Shown here: positions 3,759 through 18,240 of the stretch, one piece after another | How the letters are laid out: every line of letters starts with the position of its first letter | Position numbering within the stretch: position 1 is the stretch's first letter | Origin: Acuticoccus sp. I52.16.1 | Lineage (GTDB): Bacteria; Pseudomonadota; Alphaproteobacteria; Rhizobiales; Amorphaceae | Reading direction: 5' to 3' | Length of the DNA stretch: 64,000 bases | Assembly (NCBI RefSeq): GCF_022865125.1 | Contig: NZ_CP094828.1 | Span: 3,403,219-3,467,218 of the forward strand | Made by a program: the position numbers and the translations under genes | The notes under the pieces: model-generated | Told to the model about the DNA's origin: nothing | Databases searched by the model: none | The model's input: only the letters and a program-made list of their open reading frames with translations

Positions 3759-4355
3759 ATGCGCGACGCCGGCTTGAAGATTCTGGTCATCGACGAGAAT
3801 GCCATCCGGGCGGCCATCCTGGAGGAGGGGCTGCGCGAAGCCGGCTTTGCAAACGTCACTATAGTGCGCAACATGGCCAATCTTCTGCGCTCCATCGTCG
3901 ATGCCGATCCCGACGTCATCATCATCGACCTCGAGAATCCCAACCGGGACGTCCTGGAGCAGATGTTCCAGGTGTCGCAGACGGTGCGGCGACCGGTGGC
4001 CATGTTCGTCGGCGAATCGGGGGCGGAGATGATCGAGCGCGCGGTGGAGGCGGGTGTCTCCACCTACATCGTCGACGGGTTGAAGAAGGAGCGGGTGAAG
4101 CCGATCCTGGACATGACCCTGTCGCGGTTCAACGCCTTCAATCGCCTGCAGCGCGAGCTGGAGGATACGCGCAAGGCGCTGGAGGACCGCAAGGCGGTCG
4201 ACCGCGCCAAGGCGCTGCTGATGGAGCGCCGCGGGCTGACGGAGCGGGACGCCTACCACCTCCTGCGCAAGGCGGCGATGAACGAGCACCGCACCATCGG
4301 CGAGGTCGCGCGTTCCATCATCACGGCGGCGGACCTGCTGGAGGGGAGCGTGTGA
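3759..4355 (+). CDS. nasT: ANTAR-domain antiterminator of nitrate assimilation genes
   Basis: RNA-binding response-regulator-like protein that lets polymerase read through leader terminators of nitrate genes. 198 residues. The N-terminal receiver-like domain (LKILVIDENAIRAA, IIIDLEN) has only part of the acidic pocket (D-E-N instead of D-D/E-D). The C-terminal ANTAR domain (about residues 130-195) contains DRAKALLMERRGLTERDAY and LLRKAAM. Its stop overlaps the nasS GTG as GTGA, so the two are coupled. Upstream in-frame starts exist (for example the ATG at 3711), but family length and the domain start favour 3759. No strong ribosome binding site is visible, so the start is uncertain. A matching hairpin/terminator leader lies 1.4 kb downstream. 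Confidence 0.88.
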   Translation: MRDAGLKILVIDENAIRAAILEEGLREAGFANVTIVRNMANLLRSIVDADPDVIIIDLENPNRDVLEQMFQVSQTVRRPVAMFVGESGAEMIERAVEAGVSTYIVDGLKKERVKPILDMTLSRFNAFNRLQRELEDTRKALEDRKAVDRAKALLMERRGLTERDAYHLLRKAAMNEHRTIGEVARSIITAADLLEGSV

Positions 4356-5611
4356 CCACCTTGCGCGTCGGCTTCATCCCCCTGGTGGACAGCGCGGTGC
4401 TGGTGGCGGCCGCGCGGCGCGGGTTCGCGGCCGAGGCGGGCATCGCGCTGGAGCTGGTGCGCGAGGCGTCGTGGGCGACGGTGCGCGACAAGCTGACCAT
4501 CGGCCACATCGACTGCGCGCACATGCTGGCGCCGGTGCCGATCGCCTCGCAACTGCAGATCGGCAATCCGAAGGCGCGGATGGTCGCGCCGTTCACGCTG
4601 TCGATGAACGGCAACGCGATCTCGGTCTCCAACGCGCTCCATGGCGACATGGAGGCCACCGGGCTGATGGGCGCCCCGCGCGACGCAGCGGCGAAGGCGA
4701 GGGCACTGAAGGCGGTGGTCGACAGGCGCGCCCGGCGCGGCGAGGAACGGCTGACCTTCGGCACCGTGCACCCCTTCTCGCCGCACAATTACGAGCTGCG
4801 CTACTGGCTCGCCTCCGCCGGCATCCATCCCGACCGCGACATGACGCTGGTCGTCATCCCGCCGCCCTTCGTCGTCGACTACCTGCGCGAGGGGCACATC
4901 GACGGGTTCTGCGTCGGCGCGCCCTGGAACAGCGTCGGCATCGACGAGGGGGTGGCCAAGGCGGTCGTCGCGATCGTCGACCTGTGGCACCGCGCGCCGG
5001 AGAAGGTGCTGGGCGTGCGCGAGGCGTGGGCCGACGCGCAGCCCGAGACGCTGGACGCGCTGCTGCGGGCGCTGAAGCGGGCGGCCGAGTGGGCCGAGGA
5101 CCCCGCCAATGTCGAGGAGCTGACCGCGCTGCTGGCGGCCCACGACGTGATCGACATGGACCCCGCGCCGATCCGCGCCGCGCTCACCGGCCGTGTCCCG
5201 CTGGGAGACGACGCGCCGGAGCCGATCCCCGGCTACCTCATGTTCGACCGCGGCGGGGCGAGCTTCCCGTGGCGCTCGCACGCGCTGTGGTTCTACTCGC
5301 AGATGGTGCGGTGGGGGCAGGCGCCGCTGTCGCCCGAGGGGTTGGACCTCGCCGGCGGCGCCTTCCGCCCGGACATCTACCGCCGCGCGTTCAAGGGGAC
5401 GGGCGTGGCGCTCCCCTCGGCCAACGCCAAGGTGGAGGGGAGCCTGACGGCCGACGAGCCGGTCGGCTCGACCACGGGGCGCCTGGTGCTGCCGCGCGAC
5501 GGCTTCTTCGACGGCCGTATCTTCGACCCCACCGACATCAAGACATACGTCGACGATTTCGCCATCGACTCGCGCGATCTGCACGCGGAGTGGGCGCGGA
5601 CCGACCGCTGA
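4352..5611 (+). CDS. nasS: Cytoplasmic nitrate sensor, NrtA-like
   Basis: Nitrate/nitrite-responsive partner that sequesters NasT. 419 residues of the NrtA/CmpA fold, without a signal peptide (it starts TTLRVGFIPLVDSAVLVAA), which separates it from the exported NrtA encoded downstream. Shared family blocks: HMLAPVPIA, the FTLSMNGNAISVS segment, [24 protein letters not shown] and FYSQMVRWGQ. The GTG start at 4352 overlaps the nasT stop. Known for the family: nitrate binding releases NasT. A perfect 6-bp hairpin with a 4-nt loop follows directly after the stop (5620-5635). Confidence 0.88.
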   Translation: MTTLRVGFIPLVDSAVLVAAARRGFAAEAGIALELVREASWATVRDKLTIGHIDCAHMLAPVPIASQLQIGNPKARMVAPFTLSMNGNAISVSNALHGDMEATGLMGAPRDAAAKARALKAVVDRRARRGEERLTFGTVHPFSPHNYELRYWLASAGIHPDRDMTLVVIPPPFVVDYLREGHIDGFCVGAPWNSVGIDEGVAKAVVAIVDLWHRAPEKVLGVREAWADAQPETLDALLRALKRAAEWAEDPANVEELTALLAAHDVIDMDPAPIRAALTGRVPLGDDAPEPIPGYLMFDRGGASFPWRSHALWFYSQMVRWGQAPLSPEGLDLAGGAFRPDIYRRAFKGTGVALPSANAKVEGSLTADEPVGSTTGRLVLPRDGFFDGRIFDPTDIKTYVDDFAIDSRDLHAEWARTDR

Positions 5612-5619
5612 GACCGGCG

Positions 5620-5635
5620 CCGCGAGGTGTCGCGG
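5620..5635 (+). terminator. Hairpin just after nasS
   Basis: CCGCGA - GGTG - TCGCGG, a perfect 6-bp stem starting 9 bp after the nasS stop. There is no T tract, so it may act as a 3' end stabiliser or a weak terminator rather than a true intrinsic terminator. The rest of 5636-5780 is AT-richer than its surroundings and presumably holds the nrt promoter, but I could not assign clear -35/-10 boxes. Confidence 0.35.
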
Positions 5636-5788
5636 TGGGCCAACCGACGCAGAACCTGCGAGAAATCACCGTTCTTGCTGCATCAATGTGCAACTGCACT
5701 CTGGTTTTGTTCGAAATTTGGACTGGCGCATTCTACGTAATCTCAGGTAGACAAAGACATCGGCTTACGCTGATACCGAAATTCGCCC

Positions 5789-5826
5789 CGCCTTCAAGGT
5801 TGACGGGCAAACGGCAACGTCGCCGG
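5789..5826 (+). promoter_or_regulatory. Tandem ANTAR-type hairpins in the nrt leader RNA (NasT target)
   Basis: Two successive hairpins, each with a six-base loop that has A at position 1 and G at position 4, the known recognition pattern for ANTAR proteins. Hairpin 1: loop AAGGTT at 5796-5801, closed by C-G and T-A, then one T-C mismatch and two C-G pairs. Hairpin 2: a perfect 4-bp stem CGGC/GCCG (5812-5815 and 5822-5825) around loop AACGTC (5816-5821). Only about five bases separate them. The 3' arm of hairpin 2 is part of the 5' arm of the terminator at 5821-5828, so the two structures exclude each other. NasT is encoded 1.4 kb upstream. Confidence 0.75.
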
Positions 5827-5884
5827 CTCTCTCGCTCAAGCAAAAGCTTAGTAGCGTGACCAGCCGGCGGCGTTTTTTGTTTTT
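5821..5884 (+). terminator. Intrinsic terminator/attenuator in the nrt leader
   Basis: Perfect 8-bp stem CGCCGGCT (5821-5828) with AGCCGGCG (5862-5869). The 33-nt apical part can itself fold (CGCT/AGCG and AGC/GCT around AAAA). A T-rich tract, TTTTTT then G then TTTTT, follows at 5873-5884. It lies 41 bp before the nrtA ATG. The position between the ANTAR hairpins and the first structural gene marks it as a conditional terminator that NasT would relieve. Confidence 0.8.
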
Positions 5885-5925
5885 CCGGACGCGCCAACGA
5901 GGGCCGCCGGCTACGGGGACACCAC

Positions 5926-7323
5926 ATGACCATTGCCGCGTTCACGCGCAGGACTGTGACTGCGCTTCTTCTCGCCTCCACCAGCCTCGTCTCCTCGGCG
6001 GCCCTCGCCCAGGAGACCGTGTGGCTCGACGTCGAAAAGGACGAGCTGACCTTCGGCTTCATCAAGCTGACCGACATGGCGCCGCTCGCGATCGCCTACG
6101 AGAACGGCTACTTCGAGGACGAGGGCCTGTTCGTCACGCTGGAAGCGCAGGCGAACTGGAAGGTCCTGCTCGACGGCGTGATCACCGGCCAGCTCGACGG
6201 GGCGCACATGCTCGCCGGTCAGCCCCTCGCCGCCACGATCGGCTTCGGCACCGAGGCGCACATCGTCACCCCGTTCTCGATGGACCTCAACGGCAACGGC
6301 ATCACCGTGTCGAACGACGTCTGGGCCGAGATGAAGCCGAACATCCCGACCGATGCCGACGGCAAGCCGCAGCATCCGATCTCCGCCGCCGCGCTGAAGC
6401 CGGTGGTCGACAAGTACAACTCCGCCGGCAAGCCCTTCAACATGGGCATGGTCTTCCCCGTCTCGACCCATAACTACGAGCTGCGCTACTGGCTGGCGGC
6501 CGGCGGCATTCATCCGGGCTTCTATTCGCCGGACGACATCTCCGGCCAGATCCAGGCGCAGGCGTTCCTCTCCGTCACCCCGCCGCCACAGATGCCCGCG
6601 ACCCTCGAGGCCGGCACCATCTACGGCTACTGCGTCGGCGAGCCGTGGAACCAGCAGGCGGTGTTCCGCGACATCGGCGTGCCGGTGATCACCGACTACG
6701 AGATCTGGAAGAACAACCCGGAGAAGGTCTTCGGGATGACGAAAGAGTTCGTCGACGAGAACCCGAACACCACGCTCGCCATCGTCAAGGCGCTGATCCG
6801 CGCCGCCAAATGGCTCGACGAGAACGACAACGCCAACCGCATGGCGGCGGTGGAGATCCTGTCGCAACCGCAGTATGTGGGCGCGGACGCCGAAGTCATC
6901 GCCAATTCGATGACCGGGACGTTCGAGTACGAGAAGGGCGACGTGCGCGACGTGCCCGATTTCAACGTCTTCTTCCGCTACAACGCGACCTATCCCTTCT
7001 ACTCCGACGCCACCTGGTATCTGACGCAGATGCGCCGTTGGGGGCAGATCGCCGAGCCGAAGTCGAACGACTGGTACGCGGACGTCGCCAAATCGGTCTA
7101 TCGCCCGGACATCTACGAAGAGGCCGCGCGGCTCCTCGTCGAGGAAGGCTTCCTGAGCGAGGACGAGGTGCCCTTCGGCAGCGACGGCTACAAGGCGCCG
7201 CAGACCGAGTTCATCGACGACGTGACCTACGACGGCCGCGACCCGAACGGCTACCTCGACCAGTTCCCCATCGGCCTGAAGGGCGAGCAGAAGGTCGAGG
7301 GCACCGAGGTCGTCGGCGGCTGA
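5926..7323 (+). CDS. nrtA: Nitrate ABC transporter, substrate-binding protein
   Basis: Exported nitrate/nitrite-binding protein, 465 residues. It has a signal peptide (basic start, hydrophobic core to about residue 27, cleavage near ALAQ), then the NrtA fold: [28 protein letters not shown], the [18 protein letters not shown] block, [44 protein letters not shown] and [11 protein letters not shown]. It is the first gene of the nrtA-cysG operon and follows the leader terminator directly. Function is firm from family features. Nitrate versus nitrite preference cannot be read from sequence. Confidence 0.92.
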
Positions 7324-7426
7324 CCGCGCGTCGCGGAGCCGCTCGCCCCGCGCGGCGGCTCCCATGACCGGCAGGGCGCCCGAGCGCGCCCGCACCCAGA
7401 TCTCCCGCGTTTTTGGAGCGAGACCC

Positions 7427-8515
7427 ATGGCAGTCACCACGACGGGGCCGGATCCGGAGATGATCCGCGCGAAAGAGGCCCGGCGCGAGAAGCGCTTTAC
7501 CCTCATCAACAAGTCCGCCGGCTGGCTCGGCGTGTTCGGCCTCGGCTTCCTGGTGCCGCTGATGCGGATGGCGGCGGGCGACAGCGCCAAGGCGCAGATG
7601 CCCGAGCTGGTGCAGAGCCTCGTCATCCCGCTCGCCGGCATCGTCATCTTCATCGCCGCGTGGGCGGTGTTGGCGCCGCAGGTGAACACCTCGCTCGGCG
7701 CCATTCCCGGTCCGGTCGAGGTGGCGCGTGAGGCGGGCGGCCTGTGGGACGCGCACGCCGCCGAGCGCGAGAAGGCGGCCGACTTCTACACCCGCCAGGA
7801 CGAGCGCAACGCCAAGCTCGCCGAGATGGGAAAGGACGACCGCATCAAGTGGCGCACCTACACCGGCGCGCCGACCTACGTCGACCAGATCGTCACCTCG
7901 CTCAAGACCGTGGCGCTGGGCTTCATCTTCGCGACCGTCGTCGCCGTGCCGCTGGGCATCGCGTCGGGCCTGTCGCGGGCCGTCAACGGGGCGCTCAACC
8001 CGCTGATCCAGATCTTCAAGCCGGTCTCGCCGCTCGCGTGGCTGCCGATCGTCACCATGGTCGTCTCCGCCACCTACGTCGACGCGTCGGACGCGCTTCC
8101 CAAGTCGATGCTCGTCTCGGCCATCGTCGTCACGCTGTGCTCGCTGTGGCCGACGCTCATCAACACCGCGCTCGGCGTCGCCTCGGTCGACAAGGACCTC
8201 ACCAACGTCGGCCGCGTGTTGCAGCTGCCGACCGCGAAGTTCGTCGCCAAGGTGATCCTGCCCTCGGCACTGCCACTGATCTTCACGGGGCTGCGCCTGT
8301 CGCTGGGGGTGGGCTGGATGGTGCTGATCGCGGCGGAAATGCTGTCGCAGAACCCCGGCCTCGGCAAGTTCGTGTGGGACGAGTTCCAGAACGGGTCTTC
8401 CTCGTCGCTCGCCAAGATCATCGTCGCGGTGCTGACCATCGGCGTCATCGGCTTCCTGCTCGACCGGCTGATGTACGCCCTGCAGGCCGCCTTCACCTTC
8501 ACCAGCCAGCGCTGA
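7427..8515 (+). CDS. nrtB: Nitrate ABC transporter permease
   Basis: Inner-membrane permease, about 362 residues. A membrane helix near residue 35-50 and another near 65-85 are followed by a charged loop, then the ABC permease core with YVDQIVTSLKTVALGF, PLIQIFKPVSPLAWLPI (NrtB/SsuC-type) and the EAA-like segment ending in GLGKFVWDEFQNG. The ATG at 7427 has a GGAG ribosome binding site 9 bp upstream. An upstream in-frame start at 7364 would give an Arg-rich 21-residue extension without support. Nine bases separate it from the ATPase gene. Confidence 0.9.
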   Translation: MAVTTTGPDPEMIRAKEARREKRFTLINKSAGWLGVFGLGFLVPLMRMAAGDSAKAQMPELVQSLVIPLAGIVIFIAAWAVLAPQVNTSLGAIPGPVEVAREAGGLWDAHAAEREKAADFYTRQDERNAKLAEMGKDDRIKWRTYTGAPTYVDQIVTSLKTVALGFIFATVVAVPLGIASGLSRAVNGALNPLIQIFKPVSPLAWLPIVTMVVSATYVDASDALPKSMLVSAIVVTLCSLWPTLINTALGVASVDKDLTNVGRVLQLPTAKFVAKVILPSALPLIFTGLRLSLGVGWMVLIAAEMLSQNPGLGKFVWDEFQNGSSSSLAKIIVAVLTIGVIGFLLDRLMYALQAAFTFTSQR

Positions 8516-8524
8516 GGCCCCGTC

Positions 8525-10285
8525 ATGGCGTACCTTGAGCTGCAACACGTCTCGAAGGGCTTCGGCGAAGGTCCGGAGCGGACCGACGTCCTCGCCGACG
8601 TCAACCTCGCGGTGGACGAGGGCGAGTTCATCGCCATCGTCGGCTTCTCCGGCTCCGGCAAGTCGACGCTGATCTCCATGATCGCCGGGCTGCAGACGCC
8701 GGACGAGGGCAAGGCGATCCTGCGCGGCGCCGCCATCGCCGGCCCCGGCCCCGACCGCGGCGTGGTGTTCCAGAACTACTCGCTGATGCCGTGGCTGTCG
8801 GTCGCGCAGAACGTCGCCCTCTCGGTGGACCAGGTCTTCCCGAAAGAGAGCCGCAAGCAGCGCCGCCAGCGCGTCGCCGATGCCGTCGCGATGGTCGGCC
8901 TGGCGCACGCCAAGGACCGCAAGCCGGCCGAGCTGTCGGGCGGCATGCGCCAGCGCGTCTCGGTCGCCCGTGCGCTCGCCATGAGCCCGGACATGCTCCT
9001 CCTCGACGAGCCGCTGTCGGCGCTCGACGCGCTGACCCGCGCCAAGCTGCAGGACGAGATCGAGGAGATCTGGGAGCGCGACAAGAAGACGGTGATCCTC
9101 ATCACCAACGACGTCGACGAGGCGATCCTCCTCGCCGACCGGATCATTCCGCTCACCCCCGCGCCGCGTGCCACGCTGGGTCCGGCCTTCAAGGTCGACA
9201 TCCCGCGGCCGCGCGACCGCACGGCGATGAACTCCGACCCGGAATTCATCCGCCTGCGCGCCGAGGTGACGAACTACCTGATGCAGGTCGGCATGGAGCG
9301 CGGCGCCGACGCGTCCGATTCGCTGACGCTCCCCAACATCACGCCGATCGACAAGTCGCGCCCGCCGAAAGCCTACCTCGACGCGGCCGCCTCGCCGCTC
9401 GAGCGACGCTACCTCGAATTCTCGGGCGTCAAGAAGATCTACCCGACGCCCAAGGGCCCGCTCACCGTCGTCGACGGGTTCGACCTGATGATGGATCGGG
9501 GCGAGTTCATCACTCTGATCGGCCACTCCGGCTGCGGCAAGTCGACCGTCCTGTCCATGACCGCGGGGCTCAACGACATCTCCGCCGGCGGCATCGTGCT
9601 CGACAATCGCGAGATCTCCGGCGCCGGGCCGGACCGCGCGGTGGTCTTCCAGGCGCCCTCGCTGATGCCGTGGATGACGGCGCGCGAAAACGTCTCCATC
9701 GGGGTCGACGAGGTCTACCCCAAGGCCTCGCGCAAGGAGCGGCGCGAGATCGTCGACTACTACCTCGCCCGCGTCGGCCTGTCGGATGCGGCGGGCAAGA
9801 AGGCGGCCGAGCTCTCCAACGGTATGAAGCAGCGCGTCGGCATCGCCAGAGCCTTCGCCCTGTCGCCCAAGCTGCTCCTGCTCGACGAGCCCTTCGGCAT
9901 GCTCGACTCGCTCACCCGGTGGGAGCTTCAGGAGGTCCTGATGGACGTCTGGAAGCGCACCAAGGTGACCGCGATCTGCGTCACGCACGACGTCGACGAG
10001 GCGATCCTGCTGGCCGACAAGGTGGTCATGATGACCAACGGGCCGAACGCCAAGATCGGCCACGTCATGCACGTCGACCTGCCGCGGCCGCGCTCGCGCA
10101 AGGCGCTGCTGGAGCATCCCGACTACTACCGCTACCGCCAGACCCTCCTCGACTTCCTGGAGGCCTACGAGGGCGGGGCGACCCCCGACCCCGAGCGGCT
10201 GGCCCAGCTCCAGGCGACCGCCGGTGACAGCGTCACCGAGGTCACGCTCTCCCCCACCGATCGTGCCAACCAGGAAGCGGCGTAA
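8525..10285 (+). CDS. Double-domain ABC ATPase of the nitrate transporter (NrtC/NrtD-like fusion)
   Basis: 586 residues carrying two complete ABC ATPase domains (about 1-255 and 296-560), so both nucleotide-binding domains of the transporter are in one chain. The cyanobacterial NrtC solute-binding extension is absent. Domain 1: Walker [10 protein letters not shown] (40-48), signature LSGGMRQRV, Walker [13 protein letters not shown], but the H-loop reads ITNDVDEA with Asn near position 195. Domain 2: Walker [10 protein letters not shown] (about 333), signature LSNGMKQRV with Asn near 432, Walker [13 protein letters not shown], and H-loop His near 488. Both deviations would fall in the same composite ATP site. 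Membrane-associated partner of NrtB. Confidence 0.9.
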
Positions 10286-10290
10286 CCGTC

Positions 10291-11262
10291 ATGAACCTGA
10301 CCATGCGTGAGGCGAAGGCTGCCAGCGGCAGCGCCCCGGTGATGAAGCGGCCCTTCATCCGTGTGACCGAGGTGTGGGTCCCGTCCGAAGACGGCCCGCT
10401 CACCCTGAAGGACGGCCTCTACGGCCCGCTCGACGACTTCGAGCGCGTCGCCCGCGAGACGCGCTTCGCCAAGGGCGAGGGGCTGCCGGGGATGGCGTGG
10501 GAGACGGGCGTGCCGATCGTCCTGAAGGACCTCGTCGGCTCCTACTTCAAGCGTGGCGCGGCGGCCGAGCTCGCCGGGCTCACCTGCGCGGTGGCCGTCC
10601 CGGTGTTCCAGGGCGACACGCTCAACGCGGTGCTGGTGATGTTCTGCGGCGACGACGCCGAGCACGTCGGCGCGATCGAGCTGTGGCACGCCCCTCCGCG
10701 CGACCCGGAGATGGCGCTGGTCGACGGCTACTTCGGCACCGCGGACGTCTTCGAGTGGACCGCGCGGCACGTCAACTTCGTCAAGGGCTCCGGGCTGCCG
10801 GGGCAGACCTGGGAGCGCGGCTTTCCGGTGGTGTTCGCCAACCTCGCGTCGCCCCGCTTCCTGCGCTGGGAGAAGGCGGCGAAGGTCGGCATCACGCGCG
10901 GCTTCAGCCTGCCGATCCACAGCCCGCAGCCCGGCGTCTACGTGCTCGCCTTCCTCTCCGCGCTGGCGACGCCGATCGCGCGGCGGGTCGAGGTCTGGGT
11001 CGCCGAGAACGGCCGGCTGAAGCTCGCCGACGGGTTCTGCGAGCAGGCCGGGCTTCTCGGTGCCGCCCCGCTCGACCTCGCCTTCGGCGAAGGCGCCATC
11101 GGCATGGCCGCCACCTCCGGCGTCCCGCAAGTGACCGCGGACCTCTCCGCCGAGCCGGCGGCGATCGCCTCGGCCGCCCGTTTCGCCCAGCTCGACACGC
11201 TCGTCGCGCTGCCGGTGTTCGGCGCCGGCGGCCTCGTCGCCGTGGCCGTCTGGTACCTCTGA
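10291..11262 (+). CDS. Triple-GAF-domain protein in the nitrate operon
   Basis: 323 residues built of three tandem repeats of about 100 residues. Each opens with a strand ending in VEVW/IELW, then L.L.DG(Y/F), and contains a GLPG-type block: KGEGLPGMAWETGVP at 61, KGSGLPGQTWERGFP at 165, FGEGAIGMAATSGVP at 265. This matches the GAF domain of sensor kinases. No kinase, cyclase or DNA-binding domain is attached. It starts 5 bp after the ATPase stop and lies 52 bp before nirB, so it is co-transcribed with nitrate uptake and reduction. Function unknown. A cytosolic sensor or modulator of the transporter or reductases is inference. Confidence 0.75.
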   Translation: MNLTMREAKAASGSAPVMKRPFIRVTEVWVPSEDGPLTLKDGLYGPLDDFERVARETRFAKGEGLPGMAWETGVPIVLKDLVGSYFKRGAAAELAGLTCAVAVPVFQGDTLNAVLVMFCGDDAEHVGAIELWHAPPRDPEMALVDGYFGTADVFEWTARHVNFVKGSGLPGQTWERGFPVVFANLASPRFLRWEKAAKVGITRGFSLPIHSPQPGVYVLAFLSALATPIARRVEVWVAENGRLKLADGFCEQAGLLGAAPLDLAFGEGAIGMAATSGVPQVTADLSAEPAAIASAARFAQLDTLVALPVFGAGGLVAVAVWYL

Positions 11263-11314
11263 GGGCGGCTCGCGCGCGCCCCGTTCCCCCGCCACCCGTT
11301 TCGGAGTCTCGACA

Positions 11315-13798
11315 ATGAGTGACAAGAAACGCCTCGTCGTCATCGGCAACGGCATGGCGCCGGGCCGCGTCCTGGAGCGCCTGTTCGAGGCCGCGCCGGA
11401 CGCCTACGACGTCACGATCTTCAACGCCGAGCCGCGGGTCAACTACGACCGCATCATGCTCTCCCCGGTGCTGTCGGGCGAGAAGACGTACGAAGACATC
11501 ATCATCCACGACGACGACTGGTACGGCGAGCGCGGCATCACGCTCCACCAGGGCAAGCGGATCACCGAGATCGACCGCGACGCCAAGCGCGTCGCCGCCG
11601 CCGACGGCACGGTCGCCGAATACGACACGCTGCTGATCGCGACCGGCTCCAACCCGTTCATCATCCCGGTGCCGGGCCACGACCTCGAAGGCGTTGTCAC
11701 CTACCGCGACCTCGAGGACGTCGAGAAGATGATCGCCGCGGCCAAGCCGGGCGGGCGGCGTGCGGTGGTGATCGGCGGCGGGCTCCTGGGACTGGAGGCG
11801 GCGGCGGGCCTCGCGATGCGCGGCATGCAGGTCTCGGTCATCCACCTCTCCGAGACGCTGATGGAGCGCCAGCTCGACCCGTCGGCGGGCTACCTCCTCG
11901 AGAAGGCGATCACCTCGCGCGGGATCGACGTCATCACCAAGGCCAACACCGAGGCGATCCTCGGCGACACGCACGTCACCGGCATCAAGCTGAAGGACGG
12001 GCGCGAGATCGCGGCCGACATGGTGGTGATGGCGGTGGGCATCCGCCCCTCGGTCCAGCTCGCCAAGGACGCGGGGCTGGAGGTCGGCCGCGGCATCATG
12101 GTCGACGACCACCTCAAGACCTCGGATCCGAACGTCTTCGCGGTCGGCGAGTGCGTCGAGCACCGCGGCCAGTGCTACGGCCTGGTGGCGCCGCTCTACG
12201 AGATGGCCGCCGTCATCGCCGACCAGCTCGTCGAGGGGAGCCGCGCCTACAAGGGCTCGGTCACCTCCACCAAGCTGAAGGTGACGGGGATCGACCTCTT
12301 CTCCGCCGGCGACTTCGCCGAAGGGGAGGGGCGCGAGGAGATCGTCCTGCGCGACGCGGCGTCCGGCGTCTACAAGCGCCTGGTGCTGAGCCAGAACAAG
12401 ATCCTCGGCGTCGTCCTCTACGGCGATACCGCGGACGGCGCCTGGTACTTCCAGATGATGCGCGAGGGGGCCGACGTGTCGGACCTGCGCGACACGCTGA
12501 TCTTCGGGCAGGCGTTCGCGGGGGCCTCCCCGCTGGACCCTACGGCGGCCGTTGCAGCCTTGCCGGCTGACGCAGAGATCTGCGGCTGCAACGGCGTGTG
12601 CAAAGGGCGGATCGAGACGGCCATCACCGAGAAGAACCTCAGCAGCGTCGACGACGTGCGCGCCCACACCAAGGCGTCCGCCTCGTGCGGGACCTGCACC
12701 GGCCTCGTCGAGCAGCTCCTGAAGCTGACGCTGGGCGACGCCTTCAACCCCGCCGCAGTCCAGCCGATGTGCGGCTGCACCGGGCTCGGCCACGCGGACG
12801 TGCGGCGGCTGATCAAGGCCAAGGCGCTGAAGTCGATCCCGGCGGTGATGCAGGAGCTGGAGTGGGGCACCGCGCACGGCTGCGCCAAATGCCGTCCGGC
12901 GCTCAACTACTACCTCGTCGCCGACTGGCCGGGCGAGTACGAGGACGACGAGCAGTCCCGCTTCATCAACGAGCGCGTCCACGCCAACATCCAGAAGGAC
13001 GGCACCTACTCGGTGGTCCCGCGGATGTGGGGCGGCGTCACCTCGGCGGGCGAACTGCGCGCCATCGCCGACGTGGTGGACAAGTACGACGTCCCCACGG
13101 TGAAGGTCACCGGCGGCCAGCGGATCGACATGCTGGGCATCAAGAAGGAGGACCTCCCCGCGGTATGGGCCGATCTCGGCAAGGCGGGCTTCGTCTCCGG
13201 TCACGCTTACGCCAAGGGCCTGCGCACCGTGAAGACCTGCGTCGGGTCCGACTGGTGCCGCTTCGGCACGCAGGATTCCACCGGCCTCGGCATCAAGCTG
13301 GAGAAGTTCCTGTGGGGCGCGTGGACGCCGGCCAAGGTGAAGCTCGCCGTCTCCGGCTGCCCGCGCAACTGCGCCGAGGCGACGTGCAAGGACGTCGGCG
13401 TGATCTGCGTCGACTCCGGCTACGAGATCCACTTCGCCGGCGCCGCCGGTCTCGACATCAAGGGCACCGAAGTGCTCGGCCTGGTGCCGACGGAGGCGGA
13501 AGCGATCGAGTACATCACCGCCCTCATCCAGATGTACCGCGAGCAGGGGCACTACCTGGAACGGATCTACAAGTGGGCCAAGCGCGTCGGCCTCGACGCG
13601 GTGCGCGACCAGATCATGAACGATCCGGAGCGCCGGCGCGAATACTACGACCGCTTCGTCTACGCGCAGCAGTTCGCGCAGGACGATCCGTGGGCCGGCC
13701 GCGTCGCCACCACCGCCGGCCACGCGACCGAGTTCCGCCCCCTCGCCGAAATCGGCACGGCCTTCCCGCCGGCCGCCGTGATGGAGCCCGCCGAATGA
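11315..13798 (+). CDS. nirB: Assimilatory NAD(P)H-nitrite reductase, large subunit
   Basis: Six-electron reduction of nitrite to ammonium in the cytosol, 827 residues. Order: an FAD/NAD(P)H pyridine-nucleotide oxidoreductase domain (VVIGNGMAPGRVLE at the start, the VIGGGLLGLEAA motif near 150), two BFD-like cysteine-rich [2Fe-2S] regions (EICGCNGVCKG with CGTCTG; PMCGCTG with GCAKC), then the siroheme/[4Fe-4S] domain with CVGSDWCRFG and SGCPRNCAEATCKD. Its stop overlaps the nirD ATG. All cofactor cysteines are present. Confidence 0.95.
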   Translation: MSDKKRLVVIGNGMAPGRVLERLFEAAPDAYDVTIFNAEPRVNYDRIMLSPVLSGEKTYEDIIIHDDDWYGERGITLHQGKRITEIDRDAKRVAAADGTVAEYDTLLIATGSNPFIIPVPGHDLEGVVTYRDLEDVEKMIAAAKPGGRRAVVIGGGLLGLEAAAGLAMRGMQVSVIHLSETLMERQLDPSAGYLLEKAITSRGIDVITKANTEAILGDTHVTGIKLKDGREIAADMVVMAVGIRPSVQLAKDAGLEVGRGIMVDDHLKTSDPNVFAVGECVEHRGQCYGLVAPLYEMAAVIADQLVEGSRAYKGSVTSTKLKVTGIDLFSAGDFAEGEGREEIVLRDAASGVYKRLVLSQNKILGVVLYGDTADGAWYFQMMREGADVSDLRDTLIFGQAFAGASPLDPTAAVAALPADAEICGCNGVCKGRIETAITEKNLSSVDDVRAHTKASASCGTCTGLVEQLLKLTLGDAFNPAAVQPMCGCTGLGHADVRRLIKAKALKSIPAVMQELEWGTAHGCAKCRPALNYYLVADWPGEYEDDEQSRFINERVHANIQKDGTYSVVPRMWGGVTSAGELRAIADVVDKYDVPTVKVTGGQRIDMLGIKKEDLPAVWADLGKAGFVSGHAYAKGLRTVKTCVGSDWCRFGTQDSTGLGIKLEKFLWGAWTPAKVKLAVSGCPRNCAEATCKDVGVICVDSGYEIHFAGAAGLDIKGTEVLGLVPTEAEAIEYITALIQMYREQGHYLERIYKWAKRVGLDAVRDQIMNDPERRREYYDRFVYAQQFAQDDPWAGRVATTAGHATEFRPLAEIGTAFPPAAVMEPAE

Positions 13799-14121
13799 CC
13801 TCGCTCGTGAAGGTCGGCCGCGTCGCCGACATCCCCGTCCTCGGCGCGCGCTGCGTGACGACGCCCGGCGGCCGCATCGGCGTCTTCCGCACCGCCGACG
13901 ATCAGATCTTCGCCATCGACAACCGCTGCCCGCACAAAGGCGGCCCATTGTCGGAGGGGATCGTCCACGGCACGTCCGTCACCTGCCCGCTGCACAGCAC
14001 CGTCATCTCGCTCGCCACGGGTCAGGTGGAGGGGCCGGACGGCGGCGGCGTCGCGACCATCCCGGTGGAGGTGGTGGACGGCGAGATCTTCCTGCGCCTC
14101 GCGGTTCGCGAGGCGGCGTGA
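13795..14121 (+). CDS. nirD: Nitrite reductase small subunit (Rieske-like)
   Basis: 108-residue Rieske-type subunit of nitrite reductase. It keeps the Rieske-like pattern with CPHKGGPLSEG and CPLHSTVISLATG, so both Cys-x-His pairs are present and it may bind a [2Fe-2S] cluster (many NirD proteins lack these ligands). It starts at the ATGA overlap with nirB and ends in a TGATG overlap with nasA. Confidence 0.9.
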   Translation: MTSLVKVGRVADIPVLGARCVTTPGGRIGVFRTADDQIFAIDNRCPHKGGPLSEGIVHGTSVTCPLHSTVISLATGQVEGPDGGGVATIPVEVVDGEIFLRLAVREAA

Positions 14122-16805
14122 TGGACGCCGCGCCCGCCGCCCCGAGCGCCGTCGCGACGACGTGTCCTTACTGCGGCGTCGGATGCGGCGTCCTCGCGAC
14201 CGCGACGGCGAACGGGGTCGATATCGCCGGCGACCGCAGCCACCCGTCCAACTTCGGCCGCCTCTGCTCCAAGGGATCGGCGCTCGGCGAGACGGTGGGG
14301 CCGGAGGACCGCCTGCTCCATCCCGAGATCCACGGCGCCCGCGCCACATGGGACGCGGCCGTCGGCACCATCGCCGACGCCTTCCGCGCCGCGATCGCGG
14401 AGCACGGCCCGGATTCGGTGGCGCTCTACGTCTCCGGCCAGCTCCTGACCGAGGACTACTACGCCGCCAACAAGCTGATGAAGGGATTCATCGGCACCGC
14501 CAACATCGACACCAACTCGCGCCTGTGCATGGCCTCGTCCGTCGCCGGCCACCGGCGCGCCTTCGGGACCGACACGGTGCCCGGCGTCTACGAGGACCTC
14601 GAGGCGGCCGACCTCCTGGTGCTGGTCGGGTCCAACCTCGCCTGGTGCCACCCGGTGCTGTTCCAGCGCGTCGCAGCCGCCAAGGCCGCCCGGCCGGAGA
14701 TGACGATCGTCGTCGTCGACCCGCGCGCCACGGCCACCACCGTCGCCGCCGACCTGCACTTGGCGCTGACGCCCGACACCGACGTCGCGCTGTTCACCGG
14801 CCTCCTGGCGCATCTCGCGGAAGGGGGCCGGACGGACCACGCCTACGTGAGCGCTCATACCGAGGGCTTCGACGACGCGCTCGCCAACGCCGCCGGCTGG
14901 TCGGTCGCGCGGGTGGCCGAGGCGACGGGTCTCGCGGCGGCGGACGTCGCCCGCTTCTACGCCCTGGTGGCGGCGACGGATCGGACCGTCACCGTCTACA
15001 GCCAGGGCGTGAACCAGTCGTCCTGCGGCACCGACAAGGTGGGCGCGATCATCAACACGCACCTCGCCACCGGGCGTATCGGCCGGCCGGGGACGGGGCC
15101 CTTCTCCGTCACCGGTCAGCCCAACGCCATGGGCGGGCGCGAGGTGGGCGGCCTCGCCAACATGCTCGCCTGCCACATGGACATCGAGGACCCGGTCCAC
15201 CGCGGCATCGTCCAGCGCTTCTGGAACGCGCCGGTTATCGCGGCCCGGCCCGGCCTCAAGGCGGTCGACCTCTTCGAGGCGGTGCACGACGGGCGCATCA
15301 AGGCGCTGTGGGTGATGGCGACCAACCCGGCCGATTCGATGCCGGACGCCGGCCGCGTCGAGGAGGCGCTGCGGCGCGTGCCCTTCCTCGCCGTCTCCGA
15401 CGTCGTTGCCTCCACCGATACGCTGCGCCACGCCCACGTGAAGCTCCCCGCCGCGGCGTGGGGCGAGAAGGACGGCACGGTGACCAATTCCGAACGCCGC
15501 ATCTCGCGCCAACGCGCCTTCCTGCCGCTGCCGGGCGAGGCGCGTCCGGACTGGCGCGCCATCGCCGACGTCGCGGCCCGCATGGGCTTCGGCGACGCGT
15601 TCGCCTGGTCCGGTCCCGCCGCCATCTTCGACGAGTACGCCCGCCTCTCCGGCAGCCAGAACGACGACACCCGCGACTTCGACATTTCGGGCCTCGCCGG
15701 CCTCTCACGTCACGGCTACCACGCATTGGCGCCGGTGCAGTGGCCGGTGCCGGCGGGGGCGCCGATGGCGGGCCGGCCGGCGACGCGCTTCTTCGCCGCC
15801 GGCCGCTTCTACACGCCCTCGCGCCGTGCCCGGTTCGTCGCGCCCGAGCCGCGCCGGGCGGCCGAGAAGCCGCGCCGCTACCCCTTCACGCTCAACACCG
15901 GCCGTGTGCGCGACCATTGGCACACGATGACCCGAACCGGCCGCTCGCAACGTCTGTCGAGCCACATCGGCGAGCCGTTCGTGGAGATCCACCCGGACGC
16001 GGCGGCGGCCCACGGCATCGGCCCGGCGGACCTCGTGCGTGTCACCAGCCCGCGCGGGGCCATCGTGGTGCGCGCATTGGTGACGGACCGCGTCGCGCCG
16101 GAGGCGCTCTTCGTGCCGATGCACTGGACAGATCAGACCAGCGCCGATGCGCGGGTCGACCGGCTGGTCGCTCCCACGGTCGACCCGATCTCCGGGCAGC
16201 CGGCGCTCAAGTTCTCGTTCGCGCGGGTCGAGCGCTTCGCGGCCGAGACCTACGGCTACGCGGTGTCGACGCGCCCGATCCCGACGGCTGGACTGGCCTA
16301 CTGGGCGAGCGCGCGCGTCGCCGCCGGGACAGCCCTGGAATTCGCCGGCGACGGGCTGGACCCGCGCCCGCTCGCCGAGCGCTTGCTGGACACCGGCGAC
16401 CTCGTCGGCGTGATCGACGCGGCGGCCGGCACCGCGCGCTTCGCCGCGGTCGTGGACGGGTGCCTCGCGGGGGCGATCTTCATGGCGACAGGTCCCGTCG
16501 CGGTTTCGCGCGCCTATATGACAGGAATGCTCGGCGAGGCCGTTCCCAGCGCGGGGGCGGTGCTGGCAGGGCGTCCGGGCGCGGATCAGCCCGATCCGGG
16601 GCCGATCATCTGCTCCTGCTTCAAGGTGGGCGCGAACCAGATCGCCGCGGCGGCCGTTGACGGCGCGCGGACGGTCGCCGCAATTGGAGACGCGTTGCAA
16701 GCCGGCACGAATTGTGGATCGTGCCGAACCGAGATCGCACGAATCCTGACGAGAGTGGGTGACGAGACCGATGATTCCGAACGACAGCTCGCGTCGACCG
16801 GCTGA
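14121..16805 (+). CDS. nasA: Assimilatory nitrate reductase, catalytic subunit
   Basis: Cytosolic molybdopterin (bis-MGD) enzyme that reduces nitrate to nitrite, 894 residues. The N-terminal [4Fe-4S] site CPYCGVGCGV is followed by FGRLCSKG. Molybdopterin domains include NIDTNSRLCMASSVAG (with the likely Mo-ligand Cys), GSNLAWCHPV, the NQSSCGTDKVGAIINTH segment, TGQPNAMGGREVGG and WVMATNPADS. The C-terminus has a BFD-like [2Fe-2S] domain (ICSCFKVG, then GTNCGSC), the usual NasA addition that receives electrons. The ATG overlaps the nirD stop. A GTG three bases upstream is possible. Confidence 0.94.
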   Translation: MDAAPAAPSAVATTCPYCGVGCGVLATATANGVDIAGDRSHPSNFGRLCSKGSALGETVGPEDRLLHPEIHGARATWDAAVGTIADAFRAAIAEHGPDSVALYVSGQLLTEDYYAANKLMKGFIGTANIDTNSRLCMASSVAGHRRAFGTDTVPGVYEDLEAADLLVLVGSNLAWCHPVLFQRVAAAKAARPEMTIVVVDPRATATTVAADLHLALTPDTDVALFTGLLAHLAEGGRTDHAYVSAHTEGFDDALANAAGWSVARVAEATGLAAADVARFYALVAATDRTVTVYSQGVNQSSCGTDKVGAIINTHLATGRIGRPGTGPFSVTGQPNAMGGREVGGLANMLACHMDIEDPVHRGIVQRFWNAPVIAARPGLKAVDLFEAVHDGRIKALWVMATNPADSMPDAGRVEEALRRVPFLAVSDVVASTDTLRHAHVKLPAAAWGEKDGTVTNSERRISRQRAFLPLPGEARPDWRAIADVAARMGFGDAFAWSGPAAIFDEYARLSGSQNDDTRDFDISGLAGLSRHGYHALAPVQWPVPAGAPMAGRPATRFFAAGRFYTPSRRARFVAPEPRRAAEKPRRYPFTLNTGRVRDHWHTMTRTGRSQRLSSHIGEPFVEIHPDAAAAHGIGPADLVRVTSPRGAIVVRALVTDRVAPEALFVPMHWTDQTSADARVDRLVAPTVDPISGQPALKFSFARVERFAAETYGYAVSTRPIPTAGLAYWASARVAAGTALEFAGDGLDPRPLAERLLDTGDLVGVIDAAAGTARFAAVVDGCLAGAIFMATGPVAVSRAYMTGMLGEAVPSAGAVLAGRPGADQPDPGPIICSCFKVGANQIAAAAVDGARTVAAIGDALQAGTNCGSCRTEIARILTRVGDETDDSERQLASTG

Positions 16806-18240
16806 GGCTGCGCCGCAGCGCCTGGGGGAGCTTGCGGTTCTTCCGGTCTTCCTGGGCCTGAAGGGGCGCCGGGGGGTCCTGGCGGGCGGCAGCGAAGCGG
16901 CGACCTGGAAGGCCGAGGTGCTGGCCGCGGCCGGCGCCGACGTCGACGTCTATGCCGCCGAACCGACCGAGGAGATGCTGGCGCTGATCGCCCGCGGCGC
17001 CGCGGACGGCAGCCTGACGCTGCACACCCGCGGCTGGACCCCGGCCGACCTCGCGGGCGCCGCCGTCGCCGTGTGCGACGCGGAGACCGAGGCGGAGGCG
17101 CAGGCCTTCCATGACGCCGCGCGCGAGGCCGGCGCCCCGGTCAACGTGATCGACAAGCCGGCGTTCTGCCAGTTCCAGTTCGGCTCCATCGTCAACCGCT
17201 CGCCGGTGGTGGTCGGAATCTCGACCGACGGGGCGGCGCCGATCGTCGGCCAGGCGGTGCGCCGCCGGGTGGAGACGCTGCTGCCGCCGGGCCTCGCCGA
17301 TTGGGGCAAGCTCGCCGCCAAGGTGCGCGCCAAGGTGATGGACCGGCTGGAGATGGGGCGTCCGCGCCGCGTCTTCTGGGAGCGCTTCGCCGACCTCGCG
17401 TTCGGCAACACCGCGCCGCCCGAGGACGTCGACGCTCTGATCGAGACCGCGGGGCGGGAGCGTCAGGCCGGCCGTGTGACCCTCGTCGGCGCGGGGCCGG
17501 GCGATGCCGAGCTGATGACGCTGCAGGCGCTGCGGGCGCTCCAGGCGTGCGACGTGATCCTGTTCGACGATCTCGTCGCCGACGAGGTGCTGGAGCTCGC
17601 CCGGCGCGAGGCGAAGCGGATCTGCGTCGGCAAGCGCGGCGGCCGCGTCTCGTGCAAGCAGGAGGACATCACCGCGCTGATGATCCGCCTCGCCAAGCAG
17701 GGCCGCAGCGTGGTGCGGCTGAAGTCGGGCGACCCGATGATCTTCGGCCGCGCGGGCGAGGAGATCGCCGCGGTGCGCGCCGCGGGCATCGAGATCTCGG
17801 TGGTGCCGGGCGTGACGGCGGCCTCGGCGATGGCGTCGATCCTCGGCACGTCGCTCACCCACCGCGACCATGCCCAGACGGTCAGCTTCACCACCGGCCA
17901 CTCGCGGCACGGCAAGCTTCCCGAGGGGCTGGACGTCGCCGCGATCGTCGGCGAGGGCCGCACGGCGGTGGTCTACATGGGCGGCCGCACGTCCCAAGCG
18001 TTCGTCGACCGGGCCCGCGAGGCGGGCGTGGCGGGCGATACCCCGGCGGTGGCGATGTGGAACGTCGCGCGGGCCGACCAGCGAATCTGGCGCGGCGTGC
18101 TCGAAGGCCTCCCGGCGGCGGTGCAGGCGGCGGACGACGACGGCCCGCTGCTGATCGCGATCGGCGGCGTCTTCGGTGCCGAGGCGGCGGACCTCGCGGA
18201 CCTTCCCGAGCCCGTCCGCCAGGCGATCGCCGCGGGCTGA
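16771..18240 (+). CDS. cysG: Siroheme synthase (bifunctional CysG)
   Basis: Makes siroheme for NirB from uroporphyrinogen III. 489 residues. The N-terminal precorrin-2 dehydrogenase/ferrochelatase (Met8-like) domain has a nucleotide-binding turn (GVLAGGSEAATWKAE), the VNVIDKPAFCQFQFGS strand and GISTDGAAPIVGQAVRR. The C-terminal uroporphyrinogen methyltransferase domain (from about residue 230) has TLVGAGPGDAELMTLQALRAL, KRGGRVSCKQEDI, RLKSGDPMIFGRAGEE and VVPGVTAASA. The start lies 35 bp inside nasA. Last gene of the operon. The nucleotide loop reads GGS where many relatives have GGG. Confidence 0.92.
   Translation: MIPNDSSRRPAEAAPQRLGELAVLPVFLGLKGRRGVLAGGSEAATWKAEVLAAAGADVDVYAAEPTEEMLALIARGAADGSLTLHTRGWTPADLAGAAVAVCDAETEAEAQAFHDAAREAGAPVNVIDKPAFCQFQFGSIVNRSPVVVGISTDGAAPIVGQAVRRRVETLLPPGLADWGKLAAKVRAKVMDRLEMGRPRRVFWERFADLAFGNTAPPEDVDALIETAGRERQAGRVTLVGAGPGDAELMTLQALRALQACDVILFDDLVADEVLELARREAKRICVGKRGGRVSCKQEDITALMIRLAKQGRSVVRLKSGDPMIFGRAGEEIAAVRAAGIEISVVPGVTAASAMASILGTSLTHRDHAQTVSFTTGHSRHGKLPEGLDVAAIVGEGRTAVVYMGGRTSQAFVDRAREAGVAGDTPAVAMWNVARADQRIWRGVLEGLPAAVQAADDDGPLLIAIGGVFGAEAADLADLPEPVRQAIAAG

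Follow-up and report, generated by a model that had tools for sequence, protein, structure and literature searches.

Gene organization of the nasT-nasS-nrtA locus

Does the RNA leader between nasS and nrtA of Acuticoccus sp. I52.16.1 allow NasT to decide whether a downstream set of nitrate assimilation genes is transcribed, and which of its hairpins would serve this purpose? The target of ANTAR proteins has been defined as two hairpins (PMC3369931; PMC8164766, the latter with a linker of 2-25 nt). The window, by which we mean the whole 64-kb stretch of DNA that was analysed, corresponds to C1:3403219-3467218 of the 5.5-Mb Acuticoccus genome. The order along it is nasT, nasS, a gap of 314 nt, nrtA, nrtB, nrtCD, a gene for a GAF-domain protein, nirB, nirD, nasA and cysG, which ends at 18240.

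3759-4355, forward strand: nasT, 198-aa protein with receiver and ANTAR domains (Pfam ANTAR 3.4e-19, Response_reg 1.5e-10)
4352-5611, forward strand: nasS, 419-aa NrtA-like nitrate/nitrite sensor (Pfam NMT1_2 2.1e-72)
5926-7323, forward strand: nrtA, nitrate ABC transporter binding protein (Pfam NMT1_2 9.3e-95; synteny among relatives)
7364-8515, forward strand: nrtB, permease, start codon provisional (TIGR01183 3.7e-49, under its cut-off; BPD_transp_1)
8525-10285, forward strand: nrtCD, fused ATPase (TIGR01184 9.7e-185, two stretches)
10291-11262, forward strand: GAF-domain protein (PF13185, two stretches)
11315-13798, forward strand: nirB (TIGR02374 1.7e-275)
13795-14121, forward strand: nirD (TIGR02378, above cut-off)
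14118-16805, forward strand: nasA, molybdopterin nitrate reductase, named by context (Pfam Molybdopterin)
16759-18240, forward strand: cysG, siroheme synthase (NF007922, above cut-off)

A preliminary description of this DNA had placed NasT and NasS directly upstream of the leader and an operon of eight genes and about 12 kb downstream of it. Both upstream frames were found with family matches, and the eight downstream reading frames, likewise with family matches, occupy 5926-18240 (about 12.3 kb). The nasS and nasT frames share 4 nt, and the putative name NasS was assigned from the position next to nasT; the closest named match of NasT was that of A. yangtzensis JL1095 (93% identity over the best segment). 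The NCBIfam models Fdh-alpha, NasC and NasA all matched the nasA product and all did so under their cut-offs. The GAF-domain protein between nrtCD and nirB, for which no NCBIfam match was obtained, may be a further sensor. The eight genes are predicted to form one transcript, of which nrtA would be the first gene under control.

The order nasT-nasS-nrtA was kept in six of the six relatives examined, namely five congeners (G003 to G007) and G009 from the same family. An nrtA of this kind was absent from Acuticoccus G001 and G002 and from the family member G008, G002 giving a single weak nrtA match (E 1.1e-4). In the locus of G004 (L224), nasS was matched by tblastn in two frames at about 2667-2679, which looks like a frameshift and is possibly an error of that draft assembly.

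The terminator and hairpin P2

The structures considered in the leader (5612-5925) were the following.

5759-5774, forward strand: hairpin P0 of the window, ATCGGC-UUAC-GCUGAU, fold of -6.5 kcal/mol, with a hairpin at the matching place in congeners
5785-5808, forward strand: P1 region in the MFE fold, a two-tier hairpin with arms 5785-5788/5805-5808 and 5790-5793/5797-5800, MFE -9.0
5790-5808, forward strand: P1 in the proposed antiterminator form, loop AAGGTT at 5796-5801 and C5804 bulged, -5.6 kcal/mol (covariance model hit; two compensatory pairs relative to G003)
5812-5825, forward strand: P2, CGGC-AACGUC-GCCG, stem of 4 bp (5812-5815/5822-5825), A1/G4 hexaloop with closing C:G
5816-5884, forward strand: intrinsic terminator, arms 5816-5828/5862-5874, -35.3 kcal/mol, z -6.4

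Analysis of the terminator revealed a stem of 13 bp in which A5816-U5828 is paired with A5862-U5874, with a nested hairpin inside and U-runs at 5873-5878 and 5880-5884. The region lies 6.4 SD below dinucleotide shuffles, none of the 200 shuffles being as low; a simple terminator scan, which admits loops of 3-8 nt only, made no call at the leader. The second of the two A1/G4 loops proposed in the preliminary description, AACGTC, was located at 5816-5821, and P2 folds as had been claimed once the 3' arm of the terminator is left out of the sequence. Since the P2 loop and the 3' arm of P2 are contained in the 5' arm of the terminator (shared bases 5816-5825), P2 and the terminator are mutually exclusive. 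The overlap proposed earlier is thus real but had been mis-measured, in that the terminator arm is 5816-5828 (13 bp) and not 5821-5828 and the overlap is 5816-5825 and not 5822-5825.

A scan for P2-like hairpins (stem of at least 4 bp with 3 G-C, A1/G4 loop) with the requirement of an overlapping terminator found this one case on the forward strand of the window and none on the reverse strand. The layout did not occur in 20 shuffles of the 64 kb in which letters were mixed inside 200-base blocks and one strand was scanned. Taken without the terminator, the two small hairpins were not better than shuffles (z -0.4 jointly; -1.0 and -0.7 singly).

Comparison of the congeners indicated that P2 and its terminator are present in all five that have nrtA, and thus in all six Acuticoccus leaders, with P2 stems of 4-5 bp. 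The loops are AACGTC in the window, G004 and G005, AACGCT in G003, AGCGTC in G006 and AACGCC in G007, so that A1 and G4 are invariant. P2, whose 4-bp stem exceeds the 3 bp asked of such a hairpin, is the solid part of the tandem-hairpin claim.

No sigma-70 promoter match was found for the leader. A block, TTGTTCGAAATTTGGACT, at about 5703-5725 of the window, upstream of P0, recurs by eye with changes in several Acuticoccus leaders; it gave no sigma-70 match either and could be a promoter or an operator.

Hairpin P1 and the number of hexaloops

The other proposed loop, AAGGTT with A1/G4, was likewise located (5796-5801), and its hexaloop stem joins 5790-5795 with 5802-5803 and 5805-5808 in 6 bp, one of them U.G, closed by C:G. 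The MFE fold of the region has a UCA triloop instead, and the hexaloop form lies 3.4 kcal/mol above it. An alternative form with a 3-nt bulge (-4.5 kcal/mol) was replaced by the better one with a 1-nt bulge (-5.6). In the bulged form the linker between P1 and P2 is 5809-5811, that is 3 nt, which is inside the range of 2-25 nt; linkers of 3 nt recur among related leaders, e.g. L114. In EutV leaders, linkers of 3 nt (sharply) and of 14 nt lowered induction and the addition of 20 nt abolished antitermination (PMC3369931; PMC8934654).

The window and the genome were searched with a covariance model whose 31 training leaders included no Acuticoccus sequence. Over the 31 aligned leaders the P1-P2 module covaries, with 96.1% of cells paired and 45 double-change cells against 13.1 +/- 3.1 in shuffles, the leaders having been chosen for possessing both hairpins and L198 (misaligned) and L085 having been omitted; the closing pair of the P1 loop is C:G in 26 of them. 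The covariance check suggested earlier came out in part: the leader was the best hit in the window (5790-5826, 19.4 bits, E 0.013 in 64 kb), with two of the six P1 pairs of the model non-standard, but genome-wide it ranked third with E 1.1 (150 of 3371 candidates scored). The two higher-scoring hits (25.5 and 24.1 bits) were rejected as NasT targets and appear chance-like, since one is antisense to a reading frame, the other is located within one, and no T-run was seen in the 120 bases following either. Other searches gave no Rfam family reaching its gathering score in the window; a match to a trypanosomatid snoRNA family just downstream of the leader (E 1.6) appears chance-like. BLAST of 5780-5885 against its own genome returned itself and 37 matches, each of at most about 25 bases and with E 0.078 or worse.

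At the P1 region the congeners fold by MFE into two-tier hairpins with the loops UCUAC (G003), GCAG (G007), UGAGAAU (G006), UUUU (G004) and UUUC (G005). G003 can form a bulge-free P1 hexaloop of 6 bp at -8.6 versus an MFE of -12.3. In G007, whose NasT is 92% identical, the hexaloop form is barely possible (-0.9 versus -12.2), the best A1/G4 loop of G006 has -0.7, and G004 and G005 have no A1/G4 loop at P1. A stable equivalent of P1 is thus missing in four of the five congeners. Alignment of the window with G003 revealed that both loop-adjacent P1 pairs are doubly changed (C-G to U-A and U-A to C-G) and that A1 and G4 are kept, the compensatory bases being unpaired in the MFE fold. Of the two clean tandem hexaloop hairpins claimed in the preliminary description, P2 stands, but P1 has a bulge, is not the preferred fold and has few stable counterparts; judged from the sequences, the P1 hexaloop is plausible but weak.

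These observations bear on a variant of NasT-dependent antitermination, with which it overlaps in probability, in which P2 is the sole NasT site of this Acuticoccus lineage, NasT is recruited directly there, and P1 and P0 are ordinary hairpins remaining from an ancestral multi-hexaloop leader. The triloop of P1 and the tetraloop of P0 in the MFE folds are consistent with it, as is G007, which is without a stable A1/G4 loop upstream of P2. It has been suggested that one hexaloop is the least that an ANTAR protein needs as a site (PMC8934654). P2 on its own is bound by NasR, albeit with an affinity of about 12 instead of 1 uM (PMC7496416). It is opposed by the two double changes that separate the window from G003 at bases left unpaired in the MFE fold, across which A1, G4 and the loop-adjacent pairing of P1 are maintained, and by the impairment of EutV-dependent induction reported upon removal of P1 (PMC3369931). 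We regard this variant as a serious candidate, albeit a rather doubtful one.

Survey of NasT-type leaders

For comparison, 187 regions that follow nasS or precede nrtA, the window among them, were scanned; they came from 72 order-level genomes minus three (contig edge or fragments), 39 of 45 class-level genomes, 77 contig loci, L013 and L075. The layout of P2 within a terminator was found in 84 of the 187, and the 103 regions without P2 and terminator were excluded from the counts. Removal of four by eye (coding or chance) and of 14 redundant ones (70% identity) left 66 discovery leaders. In five of these (L090, L139, L198, L206 and L070) P2 was reassigned by eye because the program had picked P1, and the counts use the reassigned P2. 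The terminator arm begins at or within the assigned P2 loop in 63 of the 66 non-redundant leaders, an outcome that the search window favours. A second set was drawn phylum-wide and is still mainly alphaproteobacterial; of its 62 genome hits, 51 entered the analysis, and P2 with a terminator was present in 30, of which 23 were non-redundant.

Among named plasmid records, Methylocella tundrae has a dual leader and Phyllobacterium P2 only, and no leader was found downstream of nasS in the Sinorhizobium meliloti record. In L068 (Rhizobiales bacterium AFS066368) both P0 and P2 are present. In Afipia leaders (e.g. L008 and L019) the P0 loop has 8 nt, and a stretch downstream of nasS and ahead of the leader hairpins, TGGCACGATCCTTGAATA, resembles a sigma-54 promoter.

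A proposed third hairpin position

Zones were defined by distance upstream of the P2 loop (P1, 10-28 nt; P0, 38-62 nt; far zone, 66-90 nt), and stable hexaloops, with a constrained dG of -3 or below and no more than 1 kcal/mol above the local MFE, were counted blind to loop sequence. In the 66 discovery leaders A1/G4 loops made up 34 of 53 stable hexaloops in the P1 zone, 27 of 45 in the P0 zone (in 27 of the 66 leaders) and 5 of 25 in the far zone. Shuffles of the upstream sequence (40 times) gave a mean of 2.5 A1/G4 loops in the P0 zone and a maximum of 7. Two features outside the selection were shared by these P0 loops, namely A2 (23 of 27) and a closing C:G (23 of 27, compared with 7 of 18 for other loops). 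The second set behaved in the same manner, with A1/G4 in 10 of 19 P0-zone hexaloops (10 of the 23 leaders; shuffles, mean 0.9, maximum 4), closing C:G in 10 of 10 and A2 in 8 of 10. Its far zone had 5 of 15 and is therefore not a clean blank, so that hexaloop sites may extend further upstream. The binomial p values for A1/G4 at P0 against 1/16 were 2e-21 (discovery) and 5e-8 (second set), both overstated because the leaders are related.

Examples of P0 are GCTGC-AGTGGA-GCAGC (L125), GTCAGC-AACGGG-GCTGAC (L123) and GAACC-AACGCC-GGTTC (L146), and L281 and L284, from outside the class, have P0, P1 and P2. A1/G4 loops at both P0 and P1 occurred in 11 of the 66 discovery leaders, and full triple leaders (for example G366 and G221) are thus a minority. 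The counts suggest that many NasT leaders have a third docking hairpin, whose position is apparently widespread. No description of a third hexaloop in NasT leaders was found in a search of mostly open-access article texts.

Over 89 leaders an A1/G4 hexaloop was present at both P0 and P1 in 13, at P1 only in 33, at P0 only in 24 and at neither in 19, that is at P1 or P0 in 70. The two positions were anticorrelated (Fisher p 0.010, relaxed 0.006) in a test that ignores phylogeny. A strict alternation of P0 and P1 was rejected, as the signal is gone once G is allowed alongside A at position 1 (p 0.83, relaxed 0.36).

In the window the P0 stem is present and its loop, UUAC (CUUACG), is without A1/G4 and does not count as a P0 hexaloop; by strict and relaxed criteria alike no consensus hexaloop was found upstream of P2. 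In the window and G003 the P1 loop sequence is combined with a tetraloop at P0, G004 and G005 have P0 loops (AACGAA and ATTGGA, closed by G:C and not C:G) and tetraloops at P1, and G006 and G007 have neither hexaloop clearly. In the outgroup G009 there are three loops, AATGGC, ACCGTC and AACGCC; of these, AATGGC precedes P2 by 70 nt, which is outside the P0 zone. NasT of the window, G003 and G007 is 92-93% identical, that of G004, G005 and G006 74-81%, and identity between the two clades is 61-65%. The P0/P1 type of the window, G003, G004 and G005 follows these clades, but G006 and G007 do not fit so simple a scheme; the clade-wise split in six species is a pattern, not proof.

One reading of these data is that NasT leaders have three hairpin positions, P0 serving for recruitment either first or as an alternative, with NasT then passed from P0 or P1 to P2; we hold it tentatively, as a proposal whose support falls somewhat short of even. 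Lineages would then retain P0, P1 or both. In G004 and G005 the working pair would be P0 and P2, separated by an ordinary hairpin that would act as a folded spacer and so get round the linker limit reported in the literature; the span from P0 to P2 in these leaders is about 35-40 nt including that hairpin, compared with linkers of 5-12 nt in the eut leaders of Enterococcus faecalis. The window lineage, with no consensus P0 loop and a weak P1, would be a natural intermediate on the way to a switch with one hexaloop.

Proposed mechanism and comparison with known systems

NasT-dependent antitermination of the nrtA-B-CD-GAF-nirB-nirD-nasA-cysG operon by the 5612-5925 leader is the best explanation and very probably the right one, being well supported by the gene context, the mutual exclusion of P2 and terminator, and conservation. 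For the leader itself we infer from relatives NasT binding, a nitrate response and the direction of the effect. Against the explanation count the energy of the P1 hexaloop relative to the local MFE and its instability or absence in G004 to G007, the place of the window among leaders with no consensus hexaloop upstream of P2, the 3-nt linker, the third rank in the genome-wide model search and the missing sigma-70 match. When nitrate is absent, NasS would hold NasT, the nascent RNA would form the 13-bp terminator and the polymerase would stop at 5873-5884. In the presence of nitrate or nitrite, NasS would release NasT, which would recognise the P2 hexaloop (A5816, G5819), perhaps aided by P1 (A5796, G5799) as a weak recruitment site. 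NasT would thereby keep 5816-5825 from the terminator stem and transcription would continue into nrtA. The NasT-responsive tandem-hairpin leader of the preliminary description thus survives as a probable antitermination device but not with a clean P1.

That such a mechanism is known from other bacteria, as had been stated, is right. In Paracoccus denitrificans, nitrate splits NasS-NasT, after which the nasA leader RNA is bound by NasT (PMC3795266). Of the two hairpins HI and HII, 137 and 91 bp upstream of nasA, changes in HI severely lower transcription and stop growth on nitrate, those in HII having little effect (PMC5424462). That leader resembles ours in having nasT-nasS directly upstream, hairpins, and assimilatory nitrate genes downstream (PMC3795266; PMC5424462), although its operon, nasABGHC, is unlike that of Acuticoccus in content. 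The nasF leader of Klebsiella oxytoca shares A1/G4 hexaloops closed by C:G, the two-hairpin motif and transcription attenuation, but it is regulated by NasR, a one-component NIT-ANTAR protein, and is described as a two-hairpin module; NasR SELEX selected the C:G closing pair (PMC7496416). The E. faecalis eut leaders (EutV) likewise have two hexaloops, P2 lying within the terminator, but respond to ethanolamine and have the shorter linkers given above (PMC3369931; PMC8934654), and EutX RNA has one extra single hexaloop (PMC8934654). In another alphaproteobacterium, Bradyrhizobium diazoefficiens, NasT prevents terminator formation in the nosR leader (PMC6759348), but nosR is a denitrification gene.

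The strength of the hairpin (-35.3 kcal/mol) and its place directly after nasS would also suit a constitutive partial terminator that ends or trims nasTS transcription with no protein involved. We consider this very unlikely, given that an A1/G4 P2 within the terminator arm recurs across families with otherwise different stems and loops, that NasT is encoded alongside, and that the layout was found in none of the 20 shuffled windows. That one of two other ANTAR proteins, which look AmiR-like, acts on the leader in place of NasT has hardly any claim, for such proteins exist (three ANTAR matches in the genome including NasT) but both are encoded elsewhere on the chromosome adjoining AmiC/UrtA-like receptor genes, and by synteny the partner of the leader is NasT. 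The two loci, L002 (C1:4537973-4541131) and L003 (471450-474608), each adjoin an AmiC/UrtA-like receptor frame, and one also has a neighbouring nitrilase-like frame; the AmiR-like and AmiC/UrtA-like labels come from inspection of the translations and are provisional.

The leader of the window is a somewhat decayed example of an already known type of switch, and for this Acuticoccus genome NasT-dependent antitermination suggests under which conditions the nitrate-use operon is probably expressed. The most interesting result is the apparently widespread third hexaloop position seen in the comparison of leaders. The ANTAR models in the literature, one with a dimer gripping two loops together and one with successive binding, are divided by whether a second hexaloop is required and by the spacing permitted, and leaders with P0 only, P1 only or neither are natural mutants for this question.
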